From Deltaproteobacteria bacterium (GTDB lineage: Bacteria; Myxococcota; B64-G9), in NCBI GenBank assembly GCA_030622135.1, contig JAUXGL010000023.1, forward strand, positions 1 to 34,294: 34,294 bases of DNA, written 5' to 3'. The stretch's first letter is position 1; each line of letters starts with the position of its first letter. The translations under genes and the position numbers were made by a program. The notes below the pieces were generated by a model, which was given only the letters and a program-made list of their open reading frames with translations, ran no database searches and was not told the origin of the DNA. This document shows, piece by piece, positions 25,914-34,294 of the stretch.

Positions 25914-27098
25914 TCACTTTCCATCCTCCTCGACCAACCGGAGCATCGCCGCGCCGGCGGCCTCGCGCTCCTCCCGGCCGACGCCCGCGTAGATCCCCTG
26001 GACCTCCTCGGACCGCCACCCGGCCACCGCCCGGCGGACCATCCCATCGACACCGGCGAGCCGGGTTAGGTTCTCGAAGGTCCGCCGCAAGCTGTGGGGT
26101 GAAACTTCTGGCGCGCGCGCAGCCGCCGCGATCTTCCTCAACGGCTTCTGGAGGCACGACGGCGCGCGGTACCAGCTCACCTCCCCGCCGCGCCTCCTGG
26201 CCCCGCCCAAGGCGTGCGAGCGGTCGGCGGGGAACACCAAGGCGCTCGCAAGGCCGGGGTGCTGCGTCGCGACCAGCCAGCGCCTCTGCTCGCTAAGGGC
26301 GACCGCCACCGGCTCCACCACCGCCACCCTCCGGATCTCGCCCGTCTTGGTGGACTTCTCGATCCCGCGCCAGACCGACCGGCGGACATACACTTCCCCT
26401 TCCACCAGGTCGGTCCACTTCAACGCCAACCCCTCGCCGATCCTCAAGCCGGTCCAGGCGAGAACCACGACGAGCCGCCCCAGGTCGCCGGACAGCTCGC
26501 CACTCCCGGCCATGCGCTCGACCACGCCCAGGAACCGCCTGAACTCCTCCAGGGACAACGCTGTGCCCCGCCTGCCCCCGGTGCGCCCCTCGGGCAGCGC
26601 CTTGATCGCCTTCGCCGGGTTTGACTTCAGGATACCGTCCGCCACCGCGTCGTCGAGCACCTGGCGCAGGAGACGCAGCCAGTTGTTCAGGGTGACCGCG
26701 CCGAACTTCCCGACGCACCGCGCCTGCCAGGACCGGACATCACTCGGTTGGAGACCGTCCAGGTAGAACGACCCGAACGCTTCCACCGCGCGAGCGAGAT
26801 TAGTCACGTAGGTCTGCTTGGTTGACGGAGCCAGGCGGCTGGCGCGCAGCTCGATCCACCGCTCCGCGTAGTCGCCGAACCGCTCGCGCGTGCGCCGTCC
26901 CCCGAGAGTATCGCCAGCCTTCAGTTTCTCCTGGAGCGCTACTGCTTTTGGAAACGTTTCTACCATTCTTTCTATCTTCCTCCGCCGGCCCGTGCGTTTG
27001 TCCGTCTTCCTGACGCGCACCAGGAACTTGCCCGAGTCGATTTGCATGATTCCTGGAATTCGCGTTTTCTTCGGCCGGGTTTTCTTTTTCCTCGGCAT
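25914..27098 (-). CDS. Tyrosine site-specific integrase
   Basis: The 394-aa phage-type integrase has a basic N-terminal arm-binding part (MPRKKKTRPKKTR), a core-binding SAM-like domain (FGDYAERWIELRASRLAPST) and the catalytic domain with R219 (TGLRIGEG), HSLRR (H335, R338), Trp in AGWRS where a second His is more usual, and nucleophile Y370 (GIYAGVG). It cuts and rejoins DNA at att sites. I chose ATG 27098 because GGAGG lies just upstream; the open frame continues further but without domain content. It faces the truncated tRNA, with its 3' end next to the presumed attachment site, the standard layout of integrative elements. The upstream excisionase-like frame overlaps it by nearly 300 bases. 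Confidence 0.92.
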   Translation of the reverse strand: MPRKKKTRPKKTRIPGIMQIDSGKFLVRVRKTDKRTGRRRKIERMVETFPKAVALQEKLKAGDTLGGRRTRERFGDYAERWIELRASRLAPSTKQTYVTNLARAVEAFGSFYLDGLQPSDVRSWQARCVGKFGAVTLNNWLRLLRQVLDDAVADGILKSNPAKAIKALPEGRTGGRRGTALSLEEFRRFLGVVERMAGSGELSGDLGRLVVVLAWTGLRIGEGLALKWTDLVEGEVYVRRSVWRGIEKSTKTGEIRRVAVVEPVAVALSEQRRWLVATQHPGLASALVFPADRSHALGGARRRGGEVSWYRAPSCLQKPLRKIAAAARAPEVSPHSLRRTFENLTRLAGVDGMVRRAVAGWRSEEVQGIYAGVGREEREAAGAAMLRLVEEDGK

Positions 27099-27333
27099 CG
27101 TCCACCTCCTGCCCGGCCGGACGCTCCGTGCTGTCGCAACCGGAAGCATAGCACGCCGCCCGGACAAATCTGTCAAGCCCCGCGCGCGTGAACCTCCAGG
27201 ACCTCCCCACGCGCCCCTCCGGAACGAGCCGGCCCGAGGCAATCAGTCGGCACAGCGTCGAGCGGGAGACGCGCAGGTACTCGCACGCCTCGGCACTCGT
27301 GAGCCACTCGCTGATTTTCGCCTTGCCGTTCAC
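26800..27333 (-). CDS. Excisionase-like helix-turn-helix protein overlapping the integrase
   Basis: The first 60 residues from GTG 27333 form an excisionase/MerR-type helix-turn-helix: ISEWLTSAEACEYLRVSRST, LCRLIASGRLVPEGRVGRSW, RFTRAGLDRF. Such proteins bind att DNA and steer the integrase toward excision. The frame then runs on for about 100 low-complexity residues through the start of the integrase gene to 26800 without a stop. That tail has no family character, so the true protein may have lost its stop by an indel, or the overlap may be real. The integrase has its own ribosome-binding site inside this frame. GTG 27360 is an alternative start. Confidence 0.6.
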   Translation of the reverse strand: MNGKAKISEWLTSAEACEYLRVSRSTLCRLIASGRLVPEGRVGRSWRFTRAGLDRFVRAACYASGCDSTERPAGQEVDDAEEKENPAEENANSRNHANRLGQVPGARQEDGQTHGPAEEDRKNGRNVSKSSSAPGETEGWRYSRGTAHARAVRRLRGAVDRAARQPPGSVNQADLRD

Positions 27334-28790: not shown

Positions 28791-28826
28791 GATCTGTAAC
28801 GAGGCGACGCGGCAAGATAAGACCCC

Positions 28827-28877
28827 GCTTATCTGTCACGCGGCCGTGTGACAGATAAGCACTCCCTTATCTGTCAC
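28827..28877. repeat. Iteron-like array, candidate replication origin or operator
   Basis: GCTTATCTGTCAC occurs at 28827-28839, its exact reverse complement at 28848-28860, and CTTATCTGTCAC again at 28866-28877. The first two form a 13-bp perfect inverted repeat with an eight-base loop. The copies start about 18-21 bases apart, roughly two helical turns. They lie in the non-coding gap directly upstream of the Rep-like gene, where plasmid origins or Rep autoregulatory operators are found. Confidence 0.7.
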
Positions 28878-29802: not shown

Positions 29803-29830
29803 CGACGCCTCCACCTGCTGAGGCCCTGGA

Positions 29831-29895
29831 AAGAAAAGCGAGGGGCAGCCGCTCCAGGTAAAGCGGGGTTCGGCCGGCCGGGCCTAGCCCCTCGC
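29831..29895 (-). terminator. Rho-independent terminator on the minus strand
   Basis: Read on the minus strand, GCGAGGGGC (29895-29887) pairs perfectly with GCCCCTCGC (29846-29838), with an internal GC-rich structured loop, and TTTTCTTT follows at once. It ends the serine recombinase operon eight bases after the stop of its last gene; some read-through would be needed to reach the next gene. Confidence 0.65.
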
Positions 29896-30616: not shown

Positions 30617-31000
30617 TCAACCTCGCTTCTTCCTGCGCTTCGCCCCGGCCGTCTTCTTTTTCCTGGCCGTGCCCGCTGCGGGCAATTCGTCGTCCAGCAC
30701 GGCGAGACCTTTTGCGACCGCCAGGCGCAACACGTCGCTTCTTGTGACCTCACCCAACACGGCAGCGAACTCAGACGCCCTCATCCTCGGCACCATCTCC
30801 TTCGCCTTCTTCAACAGACCGCCGGATATGTACATTGATGTCAGTTGGTAGCGCCCCACAATTGCCTCCAATGCGGGCAAATCGCCCGCGCAAAAACTCT
30901 CCGTTCGTTCGCTCACTTCGCTCCCTGCCTTCGCCGTGCGGCTCGCGATCCGGTCCAGGCTTGCCCGCACCTTCCCCAGGTTGACGACCTTCTTTTTCAC
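30617..31000 (-). CDS. Small protein with ribbon-helix-helix-like C-terminal region
   Basis: The 127-aa protein has a basic N-terminus (MKKKVVNLGKVRASLDRI), a Cys-containing middle part and a C-terminal segment, EVTRSDVLRLAVAKGLAVLD, which has the R-S-D-V-L-R-L-A-V-x-K-G-L pattern of ribbon-helix-helix proteins, then a lysine tail. It probably binds DNA or RNA. GTG 31000 has GGAGG about four bases upstream and overlaps the stop of the serine recombinase (GTGA), so translation is coupled. Confidence 0.65.
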   Translation of the reverse strand: MKKKVVNLGKVRASLDRIASRTAKAGSEVSERTESFCAGDLPALEAIVGRYQLTSMYISGGLLKKAKEMVPRMRASEFAAVLGEVTRSDVLRLAVAKGLAVLDDELPAAGTARKKKTAGAKRRKKRG

Positions 31001-31716
31001 GCGACCTCCGCCCTCATCGCGCCCTTGATAGATTGTGGATGCCAGCTCTTGTGGTTCCTGGCGAACACCCCGTGGCTCTCCAACTCCCGGGCTATCGCCC
31101 GGAGGGACAACCCCTCCGCTTGCAACTCCTTCATGTCCTGGACGTTCGCCTGTTCGGTCGGCTCCGGTTCGATGTGCTTCCCGTCGTTGGCCAGGCGCCA
31201 GCCGTAAGGAATTTTCTCCGACTTCCCGCCCGTGAACTCGTGGTTAGACTTCTTCACCTGCATGGCCTTCTTGATCCGCGCCCGGATGATCGCCCGCTCG
31301 TACTCGCTGAAAGCGTCCAGCAACCTCCTCATAAGCAGCGCTTCGGGACCGGAGCCGTTGCCCGCACCGTCGGCCGCCACGATCACCGCACCCTTGCGCT
31401 CCGCTAGCTTCTCGATCATTGCCGCCGCTATCACGTCCCGCGCCAGGCGATCCCTCTTTTGCACGACCAGCACCCCGGCACCGTGCTCACCCAGGGCGTC
31501 GACCGCTGACAGTAGCTCTGGCCGCTTGTCGACGGGCGCCGCACCTGACACCCCGTGATCCTCGAACGTGCCAACCAGCTCCACCCCGTTCGACTCGGCC
31601 CACCGTTCAATCTCTTCTAACTGCACCGCCGGTCCGATCTCCTGCCGGTCGGTTGACACTCGGAGGTAAGCAACCGCTTTCTTCGGATCTCCCTGCTTTC
31701 TGTTACTGCGTCTCAT
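30997..31716 (-). CDS. Serine recombinase (resolvase/invertase family)
   Basis: The 239-aa protein has the resolvase catalytic domain with nucleophile S21 (AVAYLRVSTDRQ), GVSGAAPVDKRPEL, VVQKRDRLARD with catalytic Arg residues, and SEYERAIIRARIK, then the recombinase linker (KIPYGWRLANDGKHIEPEPT) and a short helix-turn-helix C-terminus (GLSLRAIARELESHGV). It is of small resolvase size, so resolution of multimers or inversion is more likely than large-serine-integrase function. ATG 31716 has GGGAGG upstream. It is the first gene of the leftward operon, behind a sigma-70-type promoter. Confidence 0.93.
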   Translation of the reverse strand: MRRSNRKQGDPKKAVAYLRVSTDRQEIGPAVQLEEIERWAESNGVELVGTFEDHGVSGAAPVDKRPELLSAVDALGEHGAGVLVVQKRDRLARDVIAAAMIEKLAERKGAVIVAADGAGNGSGPEALLMRRLLDAFSEYERAIIRARIKKAMQVKKSNHEFTGGKSEKIPYGWRLANDGKHIEPEPTEQANVQDMKELQAEGLSLRAIARELESHGVFARNHKSWHPQSIKGAMRAEVA

Positions 31717-31755
31717 TTCAACCTCCCTGTTTTCCTTGGGCCTGTACATAATGCA

Positions 31756-32120: not shown

Positions 32121-32149
32121 TTGACACGCATCCGACTTTTCAGTAAGAG
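32121..32149 (+). promoter_or_regulatory. Possible promoter of the three-gene HEPN operon
   Basis: TTGACA (32121-32126), 17 bases, then TAAGAG (32144-32149), a good -35 with a weak -10. It lies about 50 bases before the first start codon. Confidence 0.45.
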
Positions 32150-32199: not shown

Positions 32200-32856
32200 A
32201 TGATCGAGCCTACTGGCGCGGTTCTGGTTGTGACCGCGAAGTCCTTCAATCCCTCTATCTTCACGCAATTATGGCTATCGAAGGAGGACTTGGTTGCCGA
32301 CAAAGACTTCGTGGGTGCTTCGCTCGCAACGGAGGCCGTTGCCCAGCATGATCTGGCTAACATGCAGCTTCTGGTTGTTCCATCACGCCTACAGGTTACT
32401 CTAAAACCTGGCGATGAAGCGTCTTCAGAAGCGGGCAAGACACTCGTTGACGGGATAGTTAAAAAGCTACCACATACGCCGTTTCAGGCACTCGGAATGA
32501 ACCTCGACTACCTAGTGACCTTCGATGCACAGAGCTTCGCGCAGGTAAACCGCGCAATGTTCCTGGCCCAAAGCGGACCATTCGTGAAGGCTTTCGTCGA
32601 TGGAAATTCCCTATTCGGTGGCTACTTCTCACGTAACATTAACGGGATCAGAATGAAGGTAGACATCAAGCCGATTTCTACAGGTGGCGAAGTTGGGGTA
32701 GGCGACAAGCTCCGCTGCGTCTTCAATTACCATGTGGATCTCAAGCAGGAGGACAACGTATCAGTGATTCATACCGCCCTAGCTAAATGGAGTGATATGA
32801 CTGCGCGGGCTGTGTCGTTGCTCGAAGTCGCCGAAGCTTTCAAAGTCGAGGATTGA
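32200..32856 (+). CDS. Unknown protein, first gene of the HEPN operon
   Basis: The 218-aa protein has a beta-rich N-terminal part (GAVLVVTAKSFNPSIFTQLW), then VVPSRLQVTLKPGD and LPHTPFQALGMNLDYLVTFD, and a C-terminal part with SRNINGIRMKVDIKPIS and a last amphipathic helix. No catalytic motif, signal peptide or membrane segment was seen. The general plan, alternating strands with a P-S-R-L-Q-V strand, recalls sporadically distributed accessory proteins of unknown function, but I cannot name a family. ATG 32200 has AGGGG upstream; the frame is open from 32149. Codon use is less GC-biased than in the pilus genes. The next gene starts two bases after its stop. Confidence 0.7.
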   Translation: MIEPTGAVLVVTAKSFNPSIFTQLWLSKEDLVADKDFVGASLATEAVAQHDLANMQLLVVPSRLQVTLKPGDEASSEAGKTLVDGIVKKLPHTPFQALGMNLDYLVTFDAQSFAQVNRAMFLAQSGPFVKAFVDGNSLFGGYFSRNINGIRMKVDIKPISTGGEVGVGDKLRCVFNYHVDLKQEDNVSVIHTALAKWSDMTARAVSLLEVAEAFKVED

Positions 32857-32858
32857 TA

Positions 32859-33626
32859 GTGGCCGAAGATAAACAGACAGAGACGCTTCATCTCAATTAC
32901 GAGGCTGGATTTCCCCGGCAGTTTGCTGGATTGCTGCTTGGCGGGGCAGAACTATCGGGATCTTGGGAGGCACGGGTCCAACTCCGCCCCTCAATAAAAG
33001 AACCCACCAAATGGGCTGAGGTGCCGACCTCTGTGGTTGAATCAACGGTGGACTTTGTTGCTGGGCGTACTTCCCGCGCAAAGGGCCTGATTGCTTCGGT
33101 GGCTCAATGCCACAAGACCAGCTGGATCGACGCCAATATGCTCCAGCCTTCTGCACAAGTAGCGTTTCTACGGCCCGAACCCGACTCAATTCCCGCAGGC
33201 GCCTGGCCACAGGCGGCGGATATACCGGGATTACCGCTCGCAGTAAATCTGAGGGATGACGATAGTTGGAACGAATTATCACAGGTCTACGTAGACGAGC
33301 ACCTGGCGTGCGAACAGAATAGGATGTCCCATGTTGCTGTTGACTTAACGCGCGACGCCGAAGAGTTTATCGCACGCAATCGGCTCACACGCGAGTTCCA
33401 CCAGGCGCGGGAGATTGTGGAGAGGACCTTCCCTGGGTTAATGCAAGTTGACGTCGTACTGGAGACAGATCCCGAAGACGATTCATCTCAACCGACACTC
33501 ATTCTTGGGGTGACAACGCGTGTCTCCTCGGTAGATTTCCGAACTGCACGGAGGCGTTTCTTCCGCACGCTCAGATGGTTAGGCTGCAGTCTTCTGTGTG
33601 AGTCGCTTGCGCTTGTAAGGGAGTAA
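32859..33626 (+). CDS. Unknown protein, second gene of the HEPN operon
   Basis: The 255-aa protein has no recognised domain. The first half contains LLLGGAELSGSWEARVQLRP and CHKTSWIDANMLQPSAQVAF; the second half, from about residue 165, has a long helix (FIARNRLTREFHQAREIVER), then strands (QVDVVLETDPEDD, LILGVTTRV) and a basic helix (DFRTARRRFFRTLRWLG), an arrangement like a small ferredoxin-type alpha/beta fold. GTG 32859 has GAGG seven bases upstream; TTG 32853 would overlap the previous stop. It is tightly packed with both neighbours and should act with them. Confidence 0.7.
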   Translation: MAEDKQTETLHLNYEAGFPRQFAGLLLGGAELSGSWEARVQLRPSIKEPTKWAEVPTSVVESTVDFVAGRTSRAKGLIASVAQCHKTSWIDANMLQPSAQVAFLRPEPDSIPAGAWPQAADIPGLPLAVNLRDDDSWNELSQVYVDEHLACEQNRMSHVAVDLTRDAEEFIARNRLTREFHQAREIVERTFPGLMQVDVVLETDPEDDSSQPTLILGVTTRVSSVDFRTARRRFFRTLRWLGCSLLCESLALVRE

Positions 33627-33629
33627 GGG

Positions 33630-34064
33630 GTGGATGCGAGCCAATTTCTAGACACAGCCAAAGATCTGCTTGGTAGTGCGAAACGCGAGGGGGATTACCG
33701 TACCTGCATCAGCCGGGTGTACTACTGTGTTTACCACACCGCTTGTGCGGCAGTCCGGAAGGGTGTTGCTCCAGACCTATGCCAAAGGGCGGAGATGGAT
33801 GCCAAGCAGTCAATTTCACACGATAAGATCATCCGTTGCCTTAAGAACGCGGACGATGGCGATGTGAAGGAAGTCGGTGATGAACTGAAGAATTTGAAAG
33901 CTACAAGAATACGTGCCGACTACCACCTTTGGAGAACAGTAAGCAAACAAAATGCTCTGGATGCCGTAAAAGACGCAGAAGGTCAGTGTACAACAATATG
34001 CGAATTGACACCCCAGCGAATCGGGAAGGCTGTTACTCCCTACTTGAAAAAGATTCACCCCTAA
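33630..34064 (+). CDS. HEPN-domain protein, third gene of the operon
   Basis: The 144-aa helical protein looks like a HEPN domain: DYRTCISRVYYCVYHTACAA corresponds to the S-R-x-Y-Y-x-x-x-H-A helix of the family, and TRIRADYHLW (residues 92-101) holds R93-x5-H99, which fits the R-x(4-6)-H site of HEPN ribonucleases and the R-x-x-A-D-Y variant of related proteins. HEPN domains cut RNA in many toxin-antitoxin, abortive-infection and CRISPR systems, but some are inactive. The usual partner, a small MNT nucleotidyltransferase, is not present; the two upstream genes take its place. GTG 33630 has AGGGAG upstream and follows the previous stop after three bases. Confidence 0.72.
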   Translation: MDASQFLDTAKDLLGSAKREGDYRTCISRVYYCVYHTACAAVRKGVAPDLCQRAEMDAKQSISHDKIIRCLKNADDGDVKEVGDELKNLKATRIRADYHLWRTVSKQNALDAVKDAEGQCTTICELTPQRIGKAVTPYLKKIHP

Positions 34065-34107: not shown

Positions 34108-34135
34108 CCCCCTTCAACTTATTCGCCAAACCGAT

Positions 34136-34294
34136 CTAGTTGAATGTGGCGCTGAACGGTAGCCCGCCGGCAGTCGTCACGATCTCCGCGGCGATGTTTT
34201 TCTCCGGCGAGCTTGCGAGGAACATCTGAAGTGCTATGCCGAGCCCCCAGTTCTCAGAAACCCACCATTCCTTGCCCACCATCAGGTTGACGCC
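34136..34294 (-). CDS. C-terminal end of a probable outer-membrane beta-barrel protein (partial)
   Basis: The last 52 residues of a gene that enters from the right edge read GVNLMVGKEWWVSENWGLGI, ALQMFLASSPEKN and LPFSATFN before a TAG. The W-x-V-S-x-N-W-G-L-G-I-A strand is typical of outer-membrane barrel proteins of the kind common in Myxococcota-like genomes. Most of the gene is outside the window, so size and start are unknown. It may be the first backbone gene beyond the accessory region. Confidence 0.6.
   Translation of the reverse strand, partial: GVNLMVGKEWWVSENWGLGIALQMFLASSPEKNIAAEIVTTAGGLPFSATFN

Follow-up and report, generated by a model that had tools for sequence, protein, structure and literature searches.

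Exchangeable effectors are a feature of systems such as Lamassu, Avs1 and the RT-associated MBL systems. In the HEPN/MNT systems (HepT/MntA), the HEPN protein is encoded downstream of its partner, a nucleotidyltransferase, in a compact operon (PMC7641770, PMC3710099). For HEPN-T proteins such as AF0298 (PDB 2hsb), a variant active site has been proposed, in which an aspartate replaces the histidine and another conserved histidine may complete the site (PMC3710099). The locus analyzed here shares with HEPN/MNT the compact operon with a downstream HEPN gene and departs from it in the genes that precede the HEPN protein.

The locus lies in a window that comprises an entire contig of 34,294 bases, part of a 4.8-Mb assembly. 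It consists of three genes on the plus strand: gene 1 (32200..32856, ATG start), which encodes a protein of 218 residues (P0002); gene 2 (32859..33626, GTG start), which encodes one of 255 residues (P0003); and gene 3 (33630..34064, GTG start), which encodes an HEPN protein of the HEPN-T/UPF0332 type of 144 residues (P0001). We propose that their products act as sensor or regulator, as antitoxin or adaptor, and as RNase effector, respectively. The genes are separated by gaps of 2 bases (genes 1 and 2) and 3 bases (genes 2 and 3), a GAGG stands eight bases upstream of the GTG of gene 2, and each of the other five frames contains 4–15 stops per gene. The reading frames, coordinates and gaps given in a first-pass annotation of this DNA were all borne out, as was its statement that the operon is poorer in GC than the backbone (0.528 versus 0.614). 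The GC3 of the three genes is 0.51–0.58, compared with 0.78–0.89 in backbone genes; together with the short gaps, this common low GC3 fits a single acquired transcript. The promoter suggested upstream did not hold up: a TTGACA at 32121 is accompanied only by a weak −10 element and is absent from the output of the promoter scan.

The mobile element that had been noticed next to the operon proved to be an integrative element with a tyrosine integrase (25914..27242, minus strand; phrog_1 integrase, E 3e-50), an int-alpA RNA (29824..29894, minus strand; Rfam RF02996, 49.7 bits versus a gathering score of 35.8) and, upstream of the operon, a serine recombinase (30997..31749, minus strand; Pfam Resolvase, E 1e-30; phrog_95 and phrog_125). 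The element, which lies to the left of the operon, also contains a weak match to a terminase small subunit; the open reading frame (ORF) concerned and an uncharacterised one flank the int-alpA RNA. Positions 28815–28877 hold a pair of direct repeats of 25 bases, 38 bases apart and each with AGATAAG and CTTATCT arms, which are candidate binding sites for a regulator or excisionase. Searches of the window for attachment-site repeats and for tRNAs yielded no convincing repeats and no tRNA. The contig ends 230 bases past gene 3, so that the right border of the island lies outside the view; the ORF at 34113–34294 on the minus strand, the C-terminal end of an outer-membrane-like protein cut by the contig end, is probably a host gene beyond the island.

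The HEPN assignment of gene 3 is firm: P0001 matches the Pfam HEPN family PF05168 at E 3.6e-7 (30.8 bits versus a curated cut-off of 22) and phrog_5176 at E 1.4e-19, and a subfamily profile built without P0001 recovers it at E 6e-22. The subfamily profile also matches PDB entry 2hsb and two more recent HEPN structures, 9xbd and 9xbc, at E values of 1e-9 to 1e-10. An alignment of nine members revealed Arg24, Tyr31, Tyr32, His36, His64, Arg93, Asp97 and Tyr98 among the invariant positions, whereas position 99 is occupied by His, Glu, Lys or Gln. Because position 99 varies among relatives, the R93-x5-H99 pattern that had drawn attention to this protein is not a family motif: Arg93 is conserved, His99 is not, and the classical Rx4-6H motif is likewise not conserved among the nine members. 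What is invariant instead is an aspartate in place of the histidine (Asp97) together with upstream histidines (His36 and His64), the combination proposed for HEPN-T proteins. Judged by sequence, the invariant set fits the variant active site of the HEPN-T/AF0298 class, and RNase activity of gene 3 is plausible. Unlike in HEPN/MNT operons, no minimal nucleotidyltransferase gene is adjacent, and neither gene 1 nor gene 2 matches any nucleotidyltransferase model, in keeping with the first-pass annotation, which had remarked on the missing MNT partner.

The variable position 99 also bears on a different reading, in which the HEPN protein has no catalytic activity and acts within a regulatory complex as a subunit for binding or scaffolding, and the operon is not a toxin system. 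In its favour, the classical histidine is not conserved, and among HEPN domains that lack the motif, non-catalytic modules for substrate binding are common (PMC3710099). Arg93, Asp97, His36 and His64 are, however, invariant across nine diverse members, and a genome-scale screen cited in the same work picked up motif-less HEPN proteins as toxins (PMC3710099). We consider an inactive HEPN protein very unlikely.

Relatives of gene 3 occur in one Vibrio phage and two Klebsiella phages, on plasmids of both genera (one Klebsiella plasmid has only 3.35 kb) and on IMG/VR contigs. Every relative examined (loci L005, L006, L007, L013, L014, L015 and L061–L067) is directly preceded by a protein of 245–268 residues, which is TPR-like in one member. 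With the HEPN gene immediately after a single partner gene, these phage and plasmid loci have the layout of toxin-antitoxin pairs. PADLOC returned at best a weak HEPN_IX match for this two-gene module, which was also seen between tail genes on other phage contigs. Chromosomal matches to phrog_5176 in the phylum were set aside; most of them resemble ordinary HEPN proteins, several lying beside nucleotidyltransferases.

Gene 2 was described at the outset as unrecognised, and so it is: P0003 matched no family in NCBIfam, PADLOC or PHROGs, and a single sub-threshold match (E 0.034) was obtained with Pfam. No credible relative emerged from plasmids, phages, viral contigs and several hundred genomes; matches to GspK-like proteins, biotin synthase and similar proteins were all judged to be due to chance. 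Comparison by hhalign with the partners of the phage HEPN proteins gave probabilities of 0.1–0.2% for the whole or the C-terminal part of P0003, and profile comparison with the gene 1 family and with the family of ∼190-residue proteins described below detected no similarity. An apparent strand-strand-helix resemblance in the C-terminal part was not borne out, and an AlphaFold2 model computed without an alignment was uninformative (pLDDT 34). Because gene 2 has no relatives, position is the only feature that ties it to inhibition, and it is from this position that we propose a role as antitoxin or adaptor.

Gene 1 had also been called unrecognised. It indeed matches no family in Pfam, NCBIfam, PADLOC or PHROGs; what had been missed is its membership in a family that is widespread, has no name and carries the signature FNPxIF...W...TPxxxxGxN. 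A model of 30 relatives built without P0002 scored P0002 at E 1.7e-17, compared with E 0.62 for the best of 2000 shuffles, and all 8 invariant columns of the family are kept. By these sequence comparisons, P0002 is a genuine though divergent member. It is in fact the most divergent one (branch 5.06) and may have changed its role. On a Pantoea plasmid, a relative of comparable divergence (E 1.4e-18) retains the usual partners of the family, so that divergence alone does not account for the exchange of partners seen in the window. Structure prediction by AlphaFold2, which the first-pass annotation had advised, gave a confident alpha/beta fold (mean pLDDT 82) with no clear relative among solved structures. 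A fold search gave weak matches to AdoMetDC-like proteins (TM about 0.4) and one match to an unnamed viral protein (TM 0.59), so that no function was assigned from the fold.

The usual partners of gene 1 are an entirely different pair. A scan of 84,980 species genomes yielded 34 loci of the gene 1 family; after removal of identical copies and addition of L004, L069–L072, L076 and L079, the neighbours of gene 1 were readable in about 40 distinct loci besides the window. They span at least 11 phyla and include phage contigs and plasmids. In every locus with readable neighbours, gene 1 is followed by a protein of ∼190 residues and then by an MBL-fold hydrolase (L027–L060, L004, L024, L026, L069–L072, L076 and L079; L039 and L058 stand outside the neighbour count, as their contigs stop inside or just after gene 1). 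The HxHxDH motif is present in 34 of the 36 MBL ORFs, the remaining two being fragments. Among PHROGs, the gene 1 proteins of these trios lie near phrog_36401. Two genomes of the same bacterial family as the window (G003 and G005) have the MBL form; the gene 1 family was located on contig L048 of the former (Deltaproteobacteria) and, within the same phylum, in a Myxococcales genome (G102, L040). In the window, neither the ∼190-residue second gene nor the MBL-fold third gene adjoins gene 1, and a search of the window's genome for the ∼190-residue family came up empty at the sensitivity used. Gene 1 marks a conserved trio that is missing from the libraries searched, a conclusion much better supported than that on the HEPN form.

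This distribution raises our chief alternative, that genes 2 and 3 form a plain HEPN toxin-antitoxin pair (gene 2 the antitoxin, gene 3 the toxin) serving element maintenance or phage exclusion, and that gene 1 is a captured, irrelevant leftover of an MBL trio that is merely co-transcribed. The HEPN relatives do form two-gene modules with one upstream partner, the homologues of gene 1 otherwise keep to the MBL trio, and P0002 is very divergent. A decaying remnant would, however, hardly look like gene 1, which is of full length, keeps all invariant positions and has a confident predicted fold; it ends 2 bases before gene 2 and has the same low GC3. On balance, we regard a leftover gene 1 as rather unlikely.

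The surroundings of the MBL trios hint at a function. The MBL protein is similar to LmuA, Avs1a and RT-associated MBL proteins; one trio (L034) directly follows a type I restriction system, another (L028) lies beside a type IIG enzyme, and plasmid copies adjoin recombinases. A scan of 111 flanking ORFs gave matches to defence models including AriA, AbiLi, PtuA, HEC-01 and HmaC; ten further flanking ORFs had no defence match, and many of the loci have no recognised defence neighbour. These neighbours, rather than statistics, are suggestive of a link between the gene 1 family and defence. They also weigh on the possibility that the operon in the window serves the neighbouring integrative element as a stress-response or addiction module and plays no part against phages. 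Toxin-antitoxin-like pairs commonly act in addiction, and the operon stands beside an integrase, a serine recombinase and an int-alpA RNA. That the MBL partners of its gene 1 relatives resemble anti-phage effectors, that such relatives occur on phage contigs, and that two of their loci lie beside restriction systems nevertheless argues against a purely element-serving role, which we think unlikely.

The trio as a whole was encountered once. Neither 195 genomes of the phylum nor wider scans yielded a second operon of gene 1, gene 2 and the HEPN gene, because the relatives of gene 1 keep other company and those of the HEPN gene follow a different upstream gene. On this count, as on the variable position 99, the refuting conditions set out in the first-pass annotation told partly against its proposal, and our claim for the HEPN form is correspondingly modest. 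The three proteins matched none of the families of PADLOC (2023 catalogue) at E values up to 5, and a search of mainly open-access literature returned no description of either trio. Neither gene 1 nor gene 2 belongs to a housekeeping family. Although the operon was seen once and His99 is not conserved, the context of the gene 1 family leaves the original proposal of an undescribed toxin-antitoxin or defence module as the best reading: a toxin-antitoxin-like module, probably directed against phages.

The explanation that we favour, tentatively and as nearly an even prospect, is a horizontally acquired toxin or immune module with the HEPN protein as effector, gene 2 as inhibitor and gene 1 as a sensor or regulator shared with the MBL trios. 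The effector would be an HEPN-T ribonuclease, probably acting as a dimer, with an active site made up of Arg93, an upstream invariant histidine (His36 and/or His64) and Asp97. The product of gene 2, translated immediately before the HEPN protein, would bind it and keep it inactive, and gene 1 would most likely sense infection or regulate the complex. Upon a trigger, the HEPN protein would be released and cleave RNA, and the infected cell would be halted. Relative to the MBL trio, a new middle protein and a new effector would have come in, with the sensor-first, effector-last order retained; the simplest account of the data is that a mobile module of the immune or toxin kind has exchanged its partners. 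A broader proposal, that gene 1 is the sensor of an undescribed, widespread three-gene immune system with interchangeable effectors (MBL common, HEPN rare, the window being the first example), is possible but more doubtful.

Defence surveys that rely on Pfam, NCBIfam and PADLOC miss the gene 1 family, since it and the ∼190-residue family are absent from these libraries in spite of the wide phyletic range of gene 1. The HEPN version offers a natural comparison, with one common component and two chemically unrelated effectors, and the role of sensor proposed for gene 1 can therefore be tested. The HEPN subfamily, in turn, is a test case for the alternative HEPN active site.

Taken together, the locus combines traits of several known and newly delineated systems. 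Its likeness to Lamassu (LmuA), Avs1 and the RT-associated MBL effectors runs through the MBL protein of gene 1's usual trio; the window itself has no MBL, SMC, STAND or RT component. The two-gene phrog_5176 module lacks gene 1 and has an upstream protein that is not detectably related to P0003, but shares with the window a homologous HEPN protein with the same invariant residues, a direct upstream partner and the effector in last position. The middle and last genes of the MBL trio, finally, are unrelated to P0003 and HEPN, whereas the overall design is the same in both: a homologous gene 1 in first position, three tightly ordered genes, an enzyme at the end and a mobile context.
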